Source of the DNA: an uncultured Ruminococcus sp.
Lineage (GTDB): Bacteria; Bacillota_A; Clostridia; Oscillospirales; Ruminococcaceae
Assembly (NCBI GenBank): GCA_937880065.1
Contig: CALFMA010000037.1
Coordinates: 1-6,392, forward strand
Length of the DNA: 6,392 bases
Direction of reading: 5' to 3'
Shown here: positions 1-6,392 of the stretch, piece after piece
How the letters are laid out: every line of letters starts with the position of its first letter
Position numbering within the stretch: the stretch's first letter is position 1
The notes under the pieces: generated by a model
What the model was told of the DNA's origin: nothing
The model's database searches: none
Seen by the model: only the letters and a program-made list of their open reading frames with translations
Made by a program: the position numbers and the translations under genes

Positions 1-9
1 CTCATTCAT
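1..9 (-). CDS. start of a downstream operon gene, cut by the window edge
   Basis: Only the first three codons (Met-Asn-Glu) of a minus-strand gene are present. The ATG at 9-7 follows a purine-rich stretch, AAGGAAAGGTG on the minus strand, that can serve as a ribosome binding site. The start lies 21 nt past the stop codon of the aroC-like gene, so the aro operon probably continues with at least one more gene. Its identity cannot be read from three codons. Confidence 0.45.
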
Positions 10-30
10 AGGTATCACCTTTCCTTTCTG

Positions 31-1047
31 TCAACAGAAGTTAGGGTAGTCAAGCATGGCGGAGAGAAGTGCCGTATTGACTGCCGATTCCACATATACA
101 ACGGATTTTGGAATATTACAGCAGGGGATAGTTCCCTTTTTCGGAGGGTGAAACGCCGCCCTCAGAACAACAGGCATACCCGATGTAATTCCGTTTATTA
201 TGCCGCCGTGGCTGTTTGTATGGGTAGCGGAATATCCCTGCTCGGTTGTGTAGGAATTGTCGGCATACTGACTTCCTGCCATTTCAGCGGAGGAAAATCC
301 TGCACCGAATTCAACACCCGAAATATCGGGAATTCCGAAAAGAAGCTGTGCAATATTATTTGTAAGACCGTTGAAAACAGGTGAGCCTACACCGGAGGGG
401 ACGTTGATTGACGCACATTCAACAATTCCGCCGAGGGTTTCATCGGCATCAGCGGCAGCGGAAATGGTTTCCAGCATTTTCCAGCCGTTTTTATCGTTGA
501 TGACGGGGAAATCCTTTGAACGGACGCATATTACGCCATCCCTGTCAAGTCTTACAGCATCAAAGGGGTTGTCCTTTACATTGTGGATTCGCAGGGCATG
601 AGCCGCTGTGTAAATTCCACGTCTTTCGAGAATTTGTCCGCATATTGCTCCCGCAAAGCATATGGGAGGGGCGAATATCTCGGCAGTACGGGATTTTTCG
701 AGGGTATCGCAGTAACCTCTGTTACAAACCGCACCTGTATAATCAGCGTGACCGAAACGATAATTTTTCGGGGAATCTTCGGCTTTTTTAGCAGGTACAT
801 CAATTTTCATAACAGCACATAATGCACCCCCTGTTGTGCGTTCATTTTCGATACCCGACATAATTCGGGGCATTGAAATTCTCACATTTCCCAGAGATTT
901 CGGGGAAAGTCTGCGGAGATAACGCTCGGTTTCTTCGGAATTTATATATTCTCCCGCAGGCAGTCCGCTTATGGTAATTCCCACAATTCCGCCGCTTTCC
1001 TCGCCAAAGCAGGAAATAGAAATTTTATTGTTCCAAATCAATGACAT
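31..1047 (-). CDS. aroC: chorismate synthase homologue lacking key active-site motifs
   Basis: This 338-residue protein is clearly related to chorismate synthase, the FMN-dependent enzyme that turns EPSP into chorismate. Family features are the MSxIWxNKISIS start, GLPAG (28-32), GHADYTG (99-105, keeping the second conserved His at 100), FAGAI (131-135), GVGSPVFNGL (219-228), GVEFGAGF (244-251), GSQ (258-260) and GGIINGITSGMP (281-292). Several hallmarks are changed. FGESHG reads FGEESG (14-19), with Ser18 where the first conserved His belongs. The DYRGGG...S-x-R-x-T stretch is replaced around 113-127. About 20 residues before the C-terminal GRHDPC motif are missing, and that motif reads GTIPCC (305-310). 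The frame is uninterrupted. GGAGG (plus 1056-1060) lies 8 nt before the ATG, and the start overlaps aroA by 23 nt, suggesting translational coupling. It may be a divergent enzyme or a pseudoenzyme; ordinary chorismate synthase activity is doubtful. Confidence 0.8.
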   Translation of the reverse strand: MSLIWNNKISISCFGEESGGIVGITISGLPAGEYINSEETERYLRRLSPKSLGNVRISMPRIMSGIENERTTGGALCAVMKIDVPAKKAEDSPKNYRFGHADYTGAVCNRGYCDTLEKSRTAEIFAPPICFAGAICGQILERRGIYTAAHALRIHNVKDNPFDAVRLDRDGVICVRSKDFPVINDKNGWKMLETISAAADADETLGGIVECASINVPSGVGSPVFNGLTNNIAQLLFGIPDISGVEFGAGFSSAEMAGSQYADNSYTTEQGYSATHTNSHGGIINGITSGMPVVLRAAFHPPKKGTIPCCNIPKSVVYVESAVNTALLSAMLDYPNFC

Positions 1048-2011
1048 CAGCTTTACCTCCGAGTTTTACGTAATCCTCGAAAAATGTGGGGTATGACTTT
1101 TCTGCCGCCTCTGCACCTTTAATAATCACATCACCTTTGCAGTTTAGAGCCGCAATTGCAGCTGCCATAACAATTCGGTGGTCGCCATAGCTGTCAATTG
1201 TACCGCCGTTCAAACCGTTTGTGGGCAGAATTTCAAGACCGTCGGAAGTTACGGTCACATTTCCGCCTAAATTGTTGAGCATATCAGCACAAGCGGCAAG
1301 ACGGTCACTTTCCTTTATGCGAAGTCTTTCCGCATTGTAAATAGTTGACGGCATATTTCCGTATGCACCGAGAACTGACAAAATCGGCACCAGGTCGGGA
1401 ATATCCGAACAATCAGCTTTATATCCTGTAACAGAGCCGTTTTTCAGAGTATCGGCAATAATATCGGTTATGGCTTTATCGCCCTGTACGCTGTCCTCTT
1501 TAAGGTTGAGGATATTGACATCAGAGCCGAGAGCATTTGCCACGAAAAAGAAAGCCGCCTGTGAATAATCTCCCTCAATATGTTCGTCGTAGGGAGTATA
1601 TTTCTGATTTCCCTTAATAAGGAAGCTGTTTTCTGTTTCGCTGATTTCAATGCCGTAGCGGCGGAGAATGTCAATTGTAATATCCACATATGGACGTGAT
1701 TCGAGGTGGGAAGTCATAATAATTTCCGAATCCTCTTTTGCAAGAGGGAGTGCAAAAAGAAGTCCCGTAATGAATTGAGATGAAACATTTCCCTCAATTT
1801 CGTACTTTCCGCCTGTGAGAACACCGCTGATTTCGTAGGGCATTTCCTCTGTGTGGAAAGTGATTCCGTGATTTTTAAGTTCACGCTTGTAAATATCAAT
1901 GGGACGCTGAGGAAGTCTGCCTTTGCCGACAAACTCAGAGTCCGTTCCCAGTGCCGCAGCAACAGGAATCAGAAAACGAAGCGTTGAGCCGCTTTCGCCG
2001 CAATCGAGCAC
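1025..2011 (-). CDS. aroA: EPSP synthase (3-phosphoshikimate 1-carboxyvinyltransferase), C-terminal part after a frameshift
   Basis: This is the larger part of AroA, which joins phosphoenolpyruvate to shikimate-3-phosphate to give EPSP. The open stretch reads LDCGESGSTLRFL, SSQFITGLLFALPL, ESRPYVDITIDIL, DIPDLVPILSVLGAY, ERLRIKESDRLAA, SYGDHRIVMAAAIAAL and KSYPTFFEDYVKLGG, all in the usual family order. The catalytic Asp of the DLVP block and the RIKESDR and GDHR motifs are present. The GTG at 2011 is only the first possible start codon in this frame. It has no ribosome binding site, and the frame is open and GC-rich back to about 2056, so it is not a natural start. Together with the N-terminal fragment the gene spans 1280 nt, one short of a multiple of three, which fits a single missing base in an otherwise normal gene of about 426 residues. 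The stop lies inside the start of the aroC-like gene. Confidence 0.88.
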   Translation of the reverse strand: MLDCGESGSTLRFLIPVAAALGTDSEFVGKGRLPQRPIDIYKRELKNHGITFHTEEMPYEISGVLTGGKYEIEGNVSSQFITGLLFALPLAKEDSEIIMTSHLESRPYVDITIDILRRYGIEISETENSFLIKGNQKYTPYDEHIEGDYSQAAFFFVANALGSDVNILNLKEDSVQGDKAITDIIADTLKNGSVTGYKADCSDIPDLVPILSVLGAYGNMPSTIYNAERLRIKESDRLAACADMLNNLGGNVTVTSDGLEILPTNGLNGGTIDSYGDHRIVMAAAIAALNCKGDVIIKGAEAAEKSYPTFFEDYVKLGGKADVIDLEQ

Positions 2012-2031
2012 CGCGCTCCCGGATCCCGCCT

Positions 2032-2304
2032 TCAGCGCCTGCGAAAGCGCGGAAATTCAGCAATACCGTCTATACCGCCGCTTATACCCTTTACAGTTAC
2101 AATATCACCATTGATTTCAAATGACGCACCAAGGGCTGTCATAGAGGAAATTGTAGCCTCAATATCCTTTGACATAGTAATTCCCGAAAGTGTGGAAACT
2201 CCGTCAGCAAGAGCCGCACAGATTACTGCTCTGTGAGCACAGCTTTTTGAAGCAGGAATACTGAGATTTCCTCTGAGTACGGAGGGGCTGATTTTTATAT
2301 CCAT
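2032..2304 (-). pseudogene. aroA: EPSP synthase, N-terminal part, ended by a frameshift
   Basis: This fragment supplies the first 85 or so residues of AroA. It has the substrate-binding IPASKSCAHRAV motif (16-27, Lys20) and the SKDIEATISSMTALGA helix typical of the family. After GIDGIAEFP the frame runs into FRRR and a TGA, while the family sequence resumes in the frame one base back. Restoring one base between 2050 and 2052 would read EFP-ALSQALKAGSGSAVLDCGES without a stop. The ATG at 2304 is convincing: GGAGG lies 8 nt upstream, inside the last codons of aroB, with only 3 nt between the aroB stop and this ATG. A real mutation, a base-call error and an assembly error are all possible. Since everything else in the gene looks functional, an error is at least as likely as decay. 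Confidence 0.8.
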
Positions 2305-2307
2305 TGC

Positions 2308-3360
2308 TTAACCCTCCATAAGACGGAAAAATTCCGCAGTTGATGTTTTTCTGATTTCGCCCTTGCCGATTTCAGGGCATACAATGTAGCTGATTGACGA
2401 GGATTCACACTTTTTGTCCATTGCACAGAAAGGCAGAAGTTCGCTCATAGGTGCTTCGGAAGAAATGGGAAGCTTGTACGCTTCTACGCATTTTTCAAGC
2501 TTTTCAGCTAATTTTTCGTCACAGAAACGGCGTGTAATCATACACATACCTGCGGCTACTCCCATACCGTGGGTGTAGTTGGTGTAGTTGTGCCAGCCTT
2601 CGATAGCGTGTCCGAGAGTATGTCCGAAATTGAGGAGCATACGCTCGCCCCTGTCAAATTCGTCATTTTCCACAACCTGTCGTTTAATGTCAACGCAGGT
2701 GGAAACGATTTCGTCCATAACTTCGTGGATATTGCAGATATTGTGGTTTTCGCAAATCTCAAAGAGGTTTTCGTCACGAATCATACCGTACTTGATAACC
2801 TCCGCCATACCGCATCCCAGTTCATCTTCGGGGAGTGTGGTGAGGGTGTCGCTGTCGCAGATAACGAGGGCAGGCTGTTTGAAAGCACCTACAAGATTTT
2901 TTCCTCCTGTGATGTCAATGGCAGTTTTTCCGCCGACTGAGGAATCTACCTGTGCCAGCAGAGTAGTGGGAATCTGAACAAATTCAATTCCCCTTAAAAA
3001 AGTAGCTGCGGCAAATCCCGTAATATCGCCAACAACTCCGCCGCCAAGGGCAATGAGGAAATCGCTTCTTGTGATACCGTTGTCGCAAAGGCAATCATAA
3101 ATTGCACTGAGAGTTTTAATATTCTTTGACTGTTCACCGTGGGGGAAAACGAAAATATCAAAGGAAATACCCGATTTTTCAAGGCTTTCTCTGAGAGTAT
3201 CACTATACAGTTTGTCCACTGTATCATCAGTAATAATCACAGTTTTTTTCGAGTTCAAAACGGCAGAAATAAGCTCGCCGCTTTTTTTCAGGCTGCCTCT
3301 TTCGATATGTACATCATAAGGGCGGCTTGTTCCGATTCTGATATTTTTCAAAGAAATCAC
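2308..3360 (-). CDS. aroB: 3-dehydroquinate synthase
   Basis: AroB converts DAHP to 3-dehydroquinate, the second step of the shikimate pathway, using NAD and a divalent metal in the cytoplasm. The 350-residue frame has the normal family length and order: GGGVVGD (106-112, nucleotide binding), PTTLLAQVDSSVGGKTAID (131-149), GMAEVIKYG (184-192, metal ligand Glu187), NFGHTLGHAIE (244-254, His247 and His251) and HGMGVAAGM (264-272). All expected catalytic and zinc-ligand residues appear intact. It is the first gene of the operon, directly behind a strong promoter. The frame opens with GTG at 3360, but the only GGAG (minus strand, about 3362-3365) ends one base before that codon, too close to work. 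A TTG at 3351, 10 nt further down, is better placed and gives MKNIRIG, a usual AroB start. Confidence 0.95.
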   Translation of the reverse strand: MISLKNIRIGTSRPYDVHIERGSLKKSGELISAVLNSKKTVIITDDTVDKLYSDTLRESLEKSGISFDIFVFPHGEQSKNIKTLSAIYDCLCDNGITRSDFLIALGGGVVGDITGFAAATFLRGIEFVQIPTTLLAQVDSSVGGKTAIDITGGKNLVGAFKQPALVICDSDTLTTLPEDELGCGMAEVIKYGMIRDENLFEICENHNICNIHEVMDEIVSTCVDIKRQVVENDEFDRGERMLLNFGHTLGHAIEGWHNYTNYTHGMGVAAGMCMITRRFCDEKLAEKLEKCVEAYKLPISSEAPMSELLPFCAMDKKCESSSISYIVCPEIGKGEIRKTSTAEFFRLMEG

Positions 3361-3393
3361 GCTCCGTTGATTAGTTTATAGTTTACCTTTATA

Positions 3394-3422
3394 ATTATAT
3401 CATAGATAGCAAGGCTTGTCAA
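3394..3422 (-). promoter_or_regulatory. sigma-70 promoter of the aro operon
   Basis: On the minus strand a perfect TTGACA (3422-3417) is followed after exactly 17 nt by a perfect TATAAT (3399-3394). Transcription would start near 3387, about 25 to 35 nt before the aroB start. The leader is too short for an attenuator or riboswitch. No other promoter is apparent inside the operon. Confidence 0.85.
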
Positions 3423-3428
3423 GGGAAT

Positions 3429-3449
3429 TTTGTGCAAAAACACGAAAAA
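3429..3449 (+). repeat. direct repeat, copy 1 (21 bp)
   Basis: The sequence begins TTTGTGCAAAAACACG and ends in a run of A. It matches the copy at 3627-3647 exactly. It lies just upstream of the -35 box of the aro operon promoter, where a regulator could bind. The core GTGCAAAAACAC has a short GTG/CAC dyad. Confidence 0.7.
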
Positions 3450-3489
3450 TAATGTAGTTTTGCGTTGAATCTGTGCAGCAGCGGAATAG

Positions 3490-3518
3490 TTGACTTTTCA
3501 GCGGAAATGGGGTATAAT
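3490..3518 (+). promoter_or_regulatory. sigma-70-like promoter with no obvious gene
   Basis: TTGACT (3490-3495) is followed after 17 nt by a perfect TATAAT (3513-3518). A transcript would begin near 3525, 300 nt before the lipoprotein ATG. It could make a long leader for that gene or a separate small RNA. No coding frame of note follows it directly. Confidence 0.6.
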
Positions 3519-3626
3519 TATGACAAATTATCAGGTATGGTTTGAAATGTCAGGGCGGAGGGAGATAAAACCGAAATCCGTGCAGGAGATTTAATAAAGG
3601 CTAAGTGTAGAAAATAACAGTTTGAA

Positions 3627-3647
3627 TTTGTGCAAAAACACGAAAAA
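3627..3647 (+). repeat. direct repeat, copy 2 (21 bp)
   Basis: Exact match to the copy at 3429-3449, 198 bp away in the same orientation. The preceding bases are nearly the same too (GAATTTG against GAATTTTG). It lies between the two plus-strand promoters, about 90 bp upstream of the lipoprotein promoter. Confidence 0.7.
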
Positions 3648-3734
3648 ACAGGGTTTGTATTAGGAAATATCAAAGGAAAAAATGTGCGGATTTGCTGAAA
3701 ATGTGAAAGATTTGAAAAAATTTTCATTTTGCTA

Positions 3735-3763
3735 TGGACAAAACGGAAAAAATGTAGTATAAT
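3735..3763 (+). promoter_or_regulatory. sigma-70 promoter of the lipoprotein gene
   Basis: TGGACA (3735-3740, one mismatch to consensus) is followed after 17 nt by a perfect TATAAT (3758-3763). Transcription would begin near 3770, giving a leader of about 60 nt. That leader contains a small dyad, AGGT-ATCAG-ACCT, at about 3786-3798, too weak to call a riboswitch or terminator. Confidence 0.75.
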
Positions 3764-3815
3764 AAAAAAGCATATGATAATTATGAGGTATCAGACCTTA
3801 AATCAATTATATATC

Positions 3816-3820
3816 GGAGG
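3816..3820 (+). promoter_or_regulatory. ribosome binding site of the lipoprotein gene
   Basis: GGAGG lies 9 nt before the ATG at 3830. It fixes that start and matches the style of the aroA and aroC-like genes. No such site precedes the genes to the right of 4610. Confidence 0.8.
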
Positions 3821-3829
3821 CAAATTATA

Positions 3830-4696
3830 ATGAAAACATTGAAGAAAATCGCAGCTGCAACAGCAACATTAGCAGTAGCTGCATCATCAGTTGCAGGTTG
3901 TTCACCCTCAATCGGAGGTAATACACAGAATGCAATGACAATCAACGGCAGAGAAATTCCTGCCGGCGTGTTTATTTACTACACAATTCAGGCATACAGC
4001 GAGGCTTCAGCTATTATTCAGGGCGAAGGTACAACTGCTCCTGCCATTGAAGATGTAAGAAATGCCAACATTGACGAAATTGATTCCACAAGCTGGATTC
4101 AGAACAAGGCAACAGAATATTGCCTTGATTATGCAGGTCTTATTTCAGAATTTGAAGCTATCGGCGGACAGCTTTCAAAGGAAGATAAGGATTCTGCTGC
4201 TGAAATGGCTGAGTATTATTATTCTATGGATCCCAGACTTGCAGAAAACGGTGTAAGCCTTGAATCTATGAAATCCATTGCAGAAACTACATATATGGAA
4301 ACAGAGATTTTCAAGCACTACTATGACTTTGAGGGCGAAAAGGGCTGCTCAGAGGACGAGCTTAAAGATTTCTTCGACGAAAACTATGCAAGAATCAAGT
4401 ATGTGTCAATCAGCCTTAAAGATGAAGCAGGCGAAAAGGTTGACGCTGCACAGGAGAAGAAACTCCGCAATATGGCTAATGATTACGTAAAGCAGGTAAA
4501 TGCAAAGTCAGGCGACCTTAACAAGATGCATGAAATGGATGCAGTTCAGGAAGATTACGACGAGTATGTTGCAAAGAATACAACAACAGCTGTAGGCGCA
4601 ACTACAACAGCAATAAATAATACCGATGCTATTAATAATGCTTTTTTCATATATTCCGAATATCCTCAAATCTCTCAAAATCTTTTTTTATTCTAA
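3830..4696 (+). CDS. secreted lipoprotein, PrsA/SurA-like foldase type, with a foreign C-terminus
   Basis: The protein starts with a lipoprotein signal: charged MKTLKK, a hydrophobic Ala-rich stretch, then lipobox VAGC with Cys24 as the lipidated residue. It should therefore be anchored on the outer face of the membrane. The sequence NAMTINGREIPAGVFIYY (34-51), a long helical part, and SEDELKDFFDENYARIKYVSISL (about 174-197) resemble the N-terminal chaperone region and the run-in to the rotamase domain of PrsA/SurA-type peptidyl-prolyl isomerases. The match is by eye and moderate, and no complete rotamase domain is visible. A Thr/Ala linker (NTTTAVGATTTA, 250-261) follows. Residues 262-288 switch abruptly to AT-rich codons with no linker character and end at a TAA. 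The last 27 residues are probably not native, so the true gene is truncated. Start, promoter and ribosome binding site are clear. Confidence 0.75.
   Translation: MKTLKKIAAATATLAVAASSVAGCSPSIGGNTQNAMTINGREIPAGVFIYYTIQAYSEASAIIQGEGTTAPAIEDVRNANIDEIDSTSWIQNKATEYCLDYAGLISEFEAIGGQLSKEDKDSAAEMAEYYYSMDPRLAENGVSLESMKSIAETTYMETEIFKHYYDFEGEKGCSEDELKDFFDENYARIKYVSISLKDEAGEKVDAAQEKKLRNMANDYVKQVNAKSGDLNKMHEMDAVQEDYDEYVAKNTTTAVGATTTAINNTDAINNAFFIYSEYPQISQNLFLF
4555..4650 (-). CDS. possible 5' end of a broken gene for an exported protein
   Basis: A minus-strand ATG at 4650 opens a short frame reading MKKALLIASVLFIA, which looks like a bacterial signal peptide: two Lys, then a hydrophobic core. After about codon 13 the frame enters the antisense of the lipoprotein linker and ends at a TAA at 4557-4555. 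Only the first 13 or so codons would be genuine. A weak GAGG lies 13 nt upstream. It may be the stump of a gene cut off at the 4610 breakpoint, but a frame this short can arise by chance. Confidence 0.3.
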   Translation of the reverse strand: MKKALLIASVLFIAVVVAPTAVVVFFATYSS

Positions 4697-4749: not shown

Positions 4750-5229
4750 ATGGAAGAATTTGTTGAAATTATAGGGGTTGAACACTTAAAAACAGTTTTA
4801 TCTTCTTTAACACCGGAGGAGATTGTTAAACCGGCATTTGATAATTGGATGAGTGGTATGAAAACAGGCCATACTGTTTTGAATTTGGAAAATGCTAAAG
4901 TTTATGGTTTAGGTATTGAGTTAAATCAACTTCCGTTGGCTGATAATATTTATATTGAATTATTTACTATTAATTCTCATGAAGAACCTATTAAAGAAGA
5001 AGACTTTTTTTCAAAACATGAATATGAAGAGTTTTTGAAATTCAGCAGTGATGATCCATGTGAGTATATTCCAGATATTATTTATGAATTTTGCCAGTTA
5101 AATGGTATAGATGAATATGAAAGGTCAGTTGGTATTTTGGCATATAATTTTGAAAAAGAGGAATTGTCAAATTATAATATGTGGGAGTCAAAGATTTTAA
5201 ACAAGTATTATTTGATTATTTTAAAATGA
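4750..5229 (+). CDS. hypothetical acidic protein, C-terminus not native
   Basis: I do not recognise a family. The first 144 or so residues look like a real soluble protein: rich in Glu and Asp, with hydrophobic residues spaced as in helices and strands (EEFVEIIGVEHLKTVL, NAKVYGLGIELNQLPL, NIYIELFTI), no signal peptide and no membrane segment. The last 15 residues (SKILNKYYLIILK and nearby) are an out-of-frame reading of GH31 sequence, so the natural end has been lost near 5180. There is no Shine-Dalgarno site before the ATG at 4750. Either the start is leaderless, or the source organism makes little use of such sites, as in Bacteroidota (inference). The overlap of its TGA with the ATG at 5226 looks like translational coupling but is not, because GH31-like coding already begins upstream of that ATG. 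Confidence 0.5.
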   Translation: MEEFVEIIGVEHLKTVLSSLTPEEIVKPAFDNWMSGMKTGHTVLNLENAKVYGLGIELNQLPLADNIYIELFTINSHEEPIKEEDFFSKHEYEEFLKFSSDDPCEYIPDIIYEFCQLNGIDEYERSVGILAYNFEKEELSNYNMWESKILNKYYLIILK

Positions 5230-6392
5230 CAGGAGCTCCTGCTTTAATTCCTCGTTTTGCTTTAGGTAATTGGTGGAGTAGAAATACTATTTATGATAGT
5301 TTAGGAGTTCATGATTTAATTAGAAATTTTGAAAGAGAAAATATTCCTTTAGCTGTTATGGTTTTTGATCATGATTGGCATATTCGTGGTGACGAAAATC
5401 ATAAAAAAATAAAATCTGGTTTTACTTTTAATACTGATTTAATACATGATCCTAAAGAAATGATTGATGAATTTCATAAAAAGGGAGTTCATGTTGGTGT
5501 CGTTATTAATCCTACGAACGGAATATATCCTTTTGAACAAAATTATCCACAAGCATGTGAGTTTTTAGGAATGCAAGGTTCCAATTCTATTATTGAATTT
5601 GATCCTTTAAATCCTAAATTGTTAGATATATTATTTAAGGTTTTTTTACATCCACTTGAGTCATTAGGTATTGATTTCTTTTGGAATGATTCTGATGGTA
5701 AGATGGATTTGACTAAACTTTGGGCTTTAAATCACTATTTGTATTTAGATTCAGGACGTGATGGTAATAAGAGACCATTAATATTAGGACGTGGAGGAAT
5801 TTATGCTCCTCATAGATATCCTGTTTTATATGGTGGTTCAAGTGAAATAAGTTGGAAGGATTTACAAGCATTACCATTTAAATTTATTAATGCTGCTAAT
5901 ATTGGAGTAAGTTGGTGGAGTCATGATATAGGTGGTAATCATGGTGGTATTGAAGATGGAGAATTATATTTAAGATATGTTCAATTAGGAACTTTTGGAC
6001 CTATTTTACGTTTCCATGGTGCTCGTGGTAGATATTATAAAAAGGAACCATGGGTTTGGGATGCTAAAACTTCTAATATTGCTGCTGATTATTTAAGACT
6101 ACGTCATAGATTAATTCCATACATTTATACAGAAGCATATAATTATACTAAGTCTGGTACTCCTATAATTCAACCATTCTATTATAACTATATGTGGGTT
6201 TATGATGATGAAATTTATAAGAATCAATATTATTTTGGTTCACAATTGTTAGTATGTCCTATTTTGGAACCTAAGGACCCTATAATGAATAGATCAATTC
6301 ATAGATTCTTTGTTCCAGATGGTGTTTGGTATGATATGGTTACTGGAAGAAAATTCCCAGGTAATAAAAAATATGTATCTTTCTTTAAAGAA
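5178..6392 (+). CDS. GH31 family alpha-glycosidase catalytic domain, missing both ends
   Basis: Family GH31 enzymes hydrolyse alpha-glycosidic bonds, mostly in alpha-glucosides or alpha-xylosides. From the Met at 5226, an internal residue, 389 residues run to the window end without a stop. They begin TGAPALIPRFALGNWWS, the classic start of the barrel. Then come MVFDHDWH (45-52), GIDFFWNDSDG (148-158, with Asp155 at the nucleophile position of the WxDMNE motif), RPLILGRGG, PHRYPVLYGG, NIGVSWWSHDIGG (225-237), TFGPILRFHGARG and EPWVWD, followed by the hinge after the barrel. Before 5226 the same frame reads GVKDFKQVLFDYFK, the expected family lead-in, back to about 5184; a TAA closes it at 5175. 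The N-terminal beta-sandwich domain, normally 200 or more residues, is absent. No ribosome binding site is seen. Where the acid/base Asp is usual (W-x-GD), this protein has GGSSE (203-207). No export signal can be judged. Confidence 0.85.

Follow-up and report, generated by a model that had tools for sequence, protein, structure and literature searches.

Within the 6,392-nucleotide stretch of DNA from an uncultured Ruminococcus sp. analysed here (the window), aroB, aroA and a chorismate synthase homologue, termed aroC-B, lie in a row, followed by what are probably the first codons of a DUF4364 gene (Table 1). The aroC-B frame begins with an ATG at 1047–1045 and is open throughout, and the stop codon of aroA (1025–1027) falls inside it. 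The 338-codon open gene, the ribosome binding site and the overlap with aroA described in an earlier sequence-only reading were all confirmed. In the relative locus L001, the DUF4364 gene is complete (7030–7632) and starts 12 bases past the operon aroC copy.

Table 1. Features of the aroC-B locus, in positions of the window
Feature	Position	Strand	Basis or remark
aroC-B, degenerate chorismate synthase homologue, 338 aa	31..1047	minus	ORF, Pfam match, alignment
FGEESG where FGESHG is expected, residues 14–19	991..1008	minus	translation, alignment
aroC-B ribosome binding site GGAGGT (1060–1055)	1055..1060	minus	direct reading of the sequence
aroA (EPSP synthase)	1025..2304	minus	23-nt overlap with aroC-B; split here into ORFs 1025–2011 and 2032–2304
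aroB (3-dehydroquinate synthase), upstream of aroA	2308..3360	minus	ORF, profile match
DUF4364 gene, probable first codons, downstream	1..18	minus	inferred from alignment to L001

Two seams were noticed in the window, both outside aroC-B. At ca. 1950–2056, aroA contains a stretch that is 79% like L001, with ca. 47 nt extra and a frameshift, and the aroA of L001 is open (410 aa); this irregularity could be either an assembly seam or genuine recombination. Similarity to the Ruminococcus relative G001 ends at 4609, where the GC content drops from 44% to 29%. An ORF for a GH31 glycosidase lies beyond this point (5181–6392), the ORF at 3830–4696 is shorter than its L001 counterpart, and the segment 4610–6392 is probably a chimeric join.

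The replacement of FGESHG by FGEESG, the central claim of the sequence-only reading, was confirmed by direct reading and by alignment, and the second conserved histidine is retained, as claimed, as H100 in GHADYTG. This residue corresponds to the His of RPGHAD (His110 in S. pneumoniae) and is also retained in 77 of 94 degenerate relatives from the genus group described below. A base error as the cause of FGEESG was rejected because P0001, a protein 98% identical to the window protein that represents 55 member sequences on 12 contigs, and further relatives carry the same motif. The exact motif occurred in five proteins among the matches listed (120 of 3379 relatives).

The loss of the first catalytic histidine proved to be real but understated, as the greater part of the active-site residues has been lost. 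In the alignment, the window protein retains two of 12 active-site positions, and this histidine is one among ten losses. The Ser and His of FGESHG are replaced by E and S, the RGGGHFSGR loop aligns to LEKSRTAEI, the Arg-His-Asp of RHDP (Asp367 in Neurospora, Asp339 in S. pneumoniae) aligns to T-I-P, and the KPT motif is also absent. The FGESHG histidine is still present in 34 of the 94 degenerate relatives, in which the RHD motif is incomplete; therefore, the change at His18 is not the defining one. The description of the protein as full length holds for its open frame of 338 aa, but the stretch before the C-terminus, RHDPC included, is missing, and the protein is ca. 25 aa shorter than canonical AroC (363 aa for the canonical operon copy of G040). 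It passes the Pfam PF01264 cut-off (183.1 bits against 27) and falls below those of the equivalog models TIGR00033 (158.3 against 212.2) and PRK05382 (171.6 against 321). The predicted fold, from a model of moderate confidence (pLDDT 72.6; weak at 97–111 and 250–289), is that of a chorismate synthase, and all 28 PDB matches with E values up to 0.001 were chorismate synthases (TM score by query 0.57–0.66). Thus, the fold, the operon position, most glycine-rich stretches, GHAD and GVEFG are shared with canonical AroC (PF01264, TIGR00033), whereas the active site, the equivalog score and the length are not.

A survey of 125 genomes (MAGs) in the genus group of G001 (Ruminococcus sp.) identified a PF01264 match in 121 genomes and at least two matches in 95 of these 121, some being only pieces. 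Searching with an alignment of relatives as query yielded 108 matches of the operon type, of which 105 were fetched as lineage B; the pieces of operon copies at contig ends in G038, G041 and G044 were left out. Sixty-six second-locus genes were fetched as lineage A. In lineage B, 95 of the 105 copies were degenerate, with one to eight of the 12 sites, nine had all 12, and the copy of G046 was canonical where readable; no copy fell between eight and 12. The G046 copy, with four TGA codons, was considered as a stop-broken gene and rejected as such, given that its frame enters a run of N and its visible motifs are canonical. Counts out of 94 omit this copy (L143) and L139, which is cut by a contig end and remains among the 95. 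All 12 sites were present in 65 of the 66 lineage A genes, the remaining gene being contig-cut with 10. Active-site loss, as judged from these alignments, is a property of the clade and not peculiar to the window. One genome of this group, G010 (locus L010), carries both kinds of AroC; its record title, Alistipes sp., is probably mistaken.

Another AroC match was found in 90 of the 95 genomes with a degenerate operon copy. In 88 of these, it scored at least 366 bits, as canonical copies do, and G036 and G125 had fragments only. In none of the 10 genomes with a canonical-looking operon copy was any other AroC found. Starting from relatives of the window protein, 13 genomes were reached, all of which contain the operon copy by construction, and 12 of them had a second, canonical-scoring AroC; the relative G001, with 95% nucleotide identity over window positions 2–4609, carries one. 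The suggestion that the gene might work beside a second, normal AroC is thus supported in relatives.

Selection was compared in 54 genomes with both copies, using 99 pairs in which the B copies were at least 72% identical; 69 of these were not estimable. For the 30 estimable pairs, the median dN/dS was 0.060 (0.031–0.173) in degenerate B and 0.059 (0.024–0.102) in A, and the B value exceeded the A value in 15 pairs. A codon model fitted to 17 hand-picked genomes gave an omega of 0.075 for both copies, and nine canonical B genes gave 0.039. These codon comparisons show purifying selection on the degenerate copies like that on working copies. Frames were open in all 95 degenerate genus loci, one being contig-cut, and several residues, N160, W189 and C338 among them, have become newly fixed in the degenerate copies. 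Random decay, which the sequence-only reading had doubted, was disfavoured in relatives by both dN/dS and the open frames. Judged from the sequence, the window protein has probably ceased to be a chorismate synthase, and yet it is under selection.

Degenerate operon-type copies also occurred outside the genus. AroC was detected in 266 of 297 family genomes, 22 of which had two matches. Fifteen of these were re-searched, four genus members and three genomes with partial matches being left out; two near-full copies were found in 11 and fragments only in four. Each of the 11 had one B-lineage copy with three to seven of 12 sites and another that was canonical or nearly so. The partner was A-like in G152, G225, G303 and G425. 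In G273, G352 and G457 it was of another type and had an aroA of its own upstream, and G341, G255 and G450 carried an RGGGRSSGR type that has diverged far. The partner in G271 was odd, with TGASHA and aroA upstream too. This gene (L272) has TGASHA in place of FGESHG and a canonical C-terminus, and it shares a contig with the degenerate copy L277, a few kb away. For four pairs of out-of-genus degenerate copies and partners, dN/dS was likewise not estimable.

A tree with 104 rows placed all 24 of its degenerate B rows, the window included, in a single clade (SH-aLRT 100) that branches from within the AroCs of this family; its 14 A rows grouped in a second clade (99). A tree of the B lineage was built with the active-site columns removed. 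For the degenerate genus copies it used a thinned set of 14 rows and the window, and it excluded the long row L142. It required three changes, and none of 200 bootstrap trees united the degenerate copies; the AU test did not reject a single clade of them (p 0.379). The 22 live rows (18 of the lineage and four outgroup) all had 12 of 12 sites. A test of independent losses rested on two to three independent pairs and was not significant. Of the residues newly fixed in the genus, N160 occurred in none of the 11 out-of-genus copies and P161 in five, and W189 was also absent by eye. This pattern fits separate histories without proving them. Repeated loss of catalysis is likely from these trees, with one common origin allowed by the AU test.

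The gene order around lineage B was conserved. The neighbour scan covered aroA, aroB, DUF4364 and DAHP synthase. In the genus, aroA was directly upstream at all 105 loci and DUF4364 was downstream at 97 (92 within 150 nt and five farther); it was not seen at eight loci, six with room for it and two without. Outside the genus, DUF4364 lay downstream of 10 of the 11 degenerate copies, including L277, L279 and L281, at which aroA was not directly upstream; the upstream sequence of L282 was too short to judge. The family and class searches gave 58 AroC loci, and DUF4364 was near seven of them, namely six of nine live B-lineage loci (one 817 bp off) and L223; it was near none of the 66 A loci. Given that it was present in 37 of 41 class genomes (single copy in 35) and near so few of these AroC loci, DUF4364 has no general need of AroC. 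It was absent from all 12 genus genomes with canonical AroC but no full B gene; this absence does not support a partnership, because assembly gaps explain most of it (10 of the 12 also lacked a close match to the operon aroB). At the A loci, DAHP synthase (PF00793) was directly downstream of the canonical AroC in 54 of 66 cases (e.g., at L017, 1350–2387), an arrangement that pairs the first and last steps of the pathway.

Three scanned DUF4364 proteins matched Pfam PF14277. A model of one of them (pLDDT 88) had an N-terminal winged helix, and its PDB matches, none with an E value under 0.001, included two proteins of large complexes, ranked first, and below them many small winged-helix DNA-binding proteins of the F93, PadR and MarR types. 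From this weak resemblance, DUF4364 is predicted to be a winged-helix DNA-binding protein.

What was observed is the loss of active-site residues, purifying selection, the presence of a canonical AroC at another locus in relatives, and conserved synteny; from the sequences we infer that aroC-B is catalytically inactive. Very probably, it no longer makes chorismate but still has a function; that function is probably non-catalytic, and the gene is apparently retained alongside a second, working copy. In the reading that we prefer, with a probability of roughly 0.4, the native aroC of the aroB-aroA-aroC-DUF4364 operon became a pseudoenzyme with a non-catalytic role and DUF4364 as its proposed partner. 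Catalysis would have moved to a canonical AroC elsewhere in the genome, in the genus usually adjoining a DAHP synthase gene. The operon copy would have shed most active-site residues and been retained for a second, non-catalytic role of the lineage's AroC, which might be a partnership with the adjacent DUF4364 protein in the fashion of a trigger enzyme. DUF4364 is proposed because it mostly stays through the loss of catalysis, in some genomes without an adjoining aroA. As a mechanism, this partnership is hypothetical and we hold it tentatively, on the doubtful side, because inherited gene order alone could yield the same adjacency.

Two known systems resemble parts of this proposal. HisZ is likewise a pathway protein that arose from an enzyme, lost catalysis and was retained; unlike aroC-B, it derives from an enzyme of another pathway and has a known partner, whereas that of aroC-B is hypothetical. 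In trigger enzymes such as RocG, a metabolic enzyme controls a DNA-binding protein, which is the mode proposed for aroC-B, although RocG is catalytically active and contact of aroC-B with DUF4364 is hypothetical. HisZ is described as a histidyl-tRNA synthetase paralogue that regulates HisG (PMC10795190), and RocG with GltC is given as an example of trigger enzymes (PMC6794564).

Alternatively, aroC-B could be a regulatory or structural subunit, forming mixed tetramers with the canonical AroC or a scaffold for AroA, much as HisZ serves HisG. Chorismate synthases form homotetramers (PMC3509576), and the retained fold and the invariable position of aroA directly upstream in the genus would suit such a subunit. 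We nevertheless consider it unlikely, since the canonical partners are of at least three unlike AroC types, making one conserved mixed tetramer less likely, and L277, L279 and L281 have no aroA directly upstream. Because the chorismate-making partner differs between lineages, a partner-independent role is more plausible than mixed tetramers.

It is similarly improbable that aroC-B is a new enzyme that has kept the ability to bind FMN, or some other ligand, on the old scaffold and now catalyses another reaction. A and canonical B share 104 conserved positions. Of these, the 94 degenerate copies retain 44 at 95% or more (including E16, R46, D102, H150, E246, D263 and N278), partly retain 30 and have lost 30, and the losses are largely in or near catalytic motifs. 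New residues have also been fixed, namely N160 and P161 (93 copies each), W189 and C338 (91 each), S174 (89) and T25 (87); the window protein has Cys at 174. Both the retention and the new residues would be compatible with a changed activity. However, the degenerate copies differ widely from one another in the old catalytic motifs, which would not be expected of a new active site at that position, and no new conserved neighbour besides DUF4364 appeared among the four gene families scanned.

We give very little credence to aroC-B as a chorismate synthase that still works with altered residues. In its favour, the profile search found no second AroC in five of the 95 genomes with a degenerate copy (G011, G064, G076, G078 and G108), and G064 and G076 have the DAHP synthase of the canonical locus with no canonical AroC visible. 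In the other three, the missing copy fits assembly gaps: the DAHP synthase that usually follows canonical AroC begins at base 146 of its contig in G011 and was not found in G078 and G108. Against such activity stand the ten lost sites in the window protein and the other AroC match in 90 genomes. Furthermore, Asp mutants of the Neurospora enzyme lose activity 300–600-fold (PMC3509576), and the Asp of the RHD motif is retained in only 24 of the 94 degenerate copies. A decaying relic, or a frame kept merely to couple DUF4364 translation to that of aroA, might account for the overlap with aroA and the 12-base spacing to DUF4364 in L001, but it is hardly credible given dN/dS values like those of a working copy, the open frames and the newly fixed residues.

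Returning to the pseudoenzyme reading, a literature search, with many subscription papers and bioRxiv outside it, returned no report of an inactive AroC, judged by title, and within the same limits no paper naming DUF4364. The survey places a probable shikimate-pathway pseudoenzyme in about 95 species genomes within a single genus group, in addition to out-of-genus cases with unlike partners. P0001, P0018 and others are annotated as chorismate synthase, and the wrong gene may therefore be credited when the pathways of common gut and rumen bacteria are reconstructed. A broader and rather doubtful extension is that the AroC of this lineage is bifunctional, with a structural or signalling role tied to DUF4364, and that the operon copy was repeatedly reduced to that role once another AroC, whatever its source, took over catalysis. 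Such a hidden second function of AroC would be directly testable. If this extension is true, these pseudoenzymes would expose moonlighting by an enzyme of core metabolism and offer a first lead on DUF4364, a widespread protein of unknown function.
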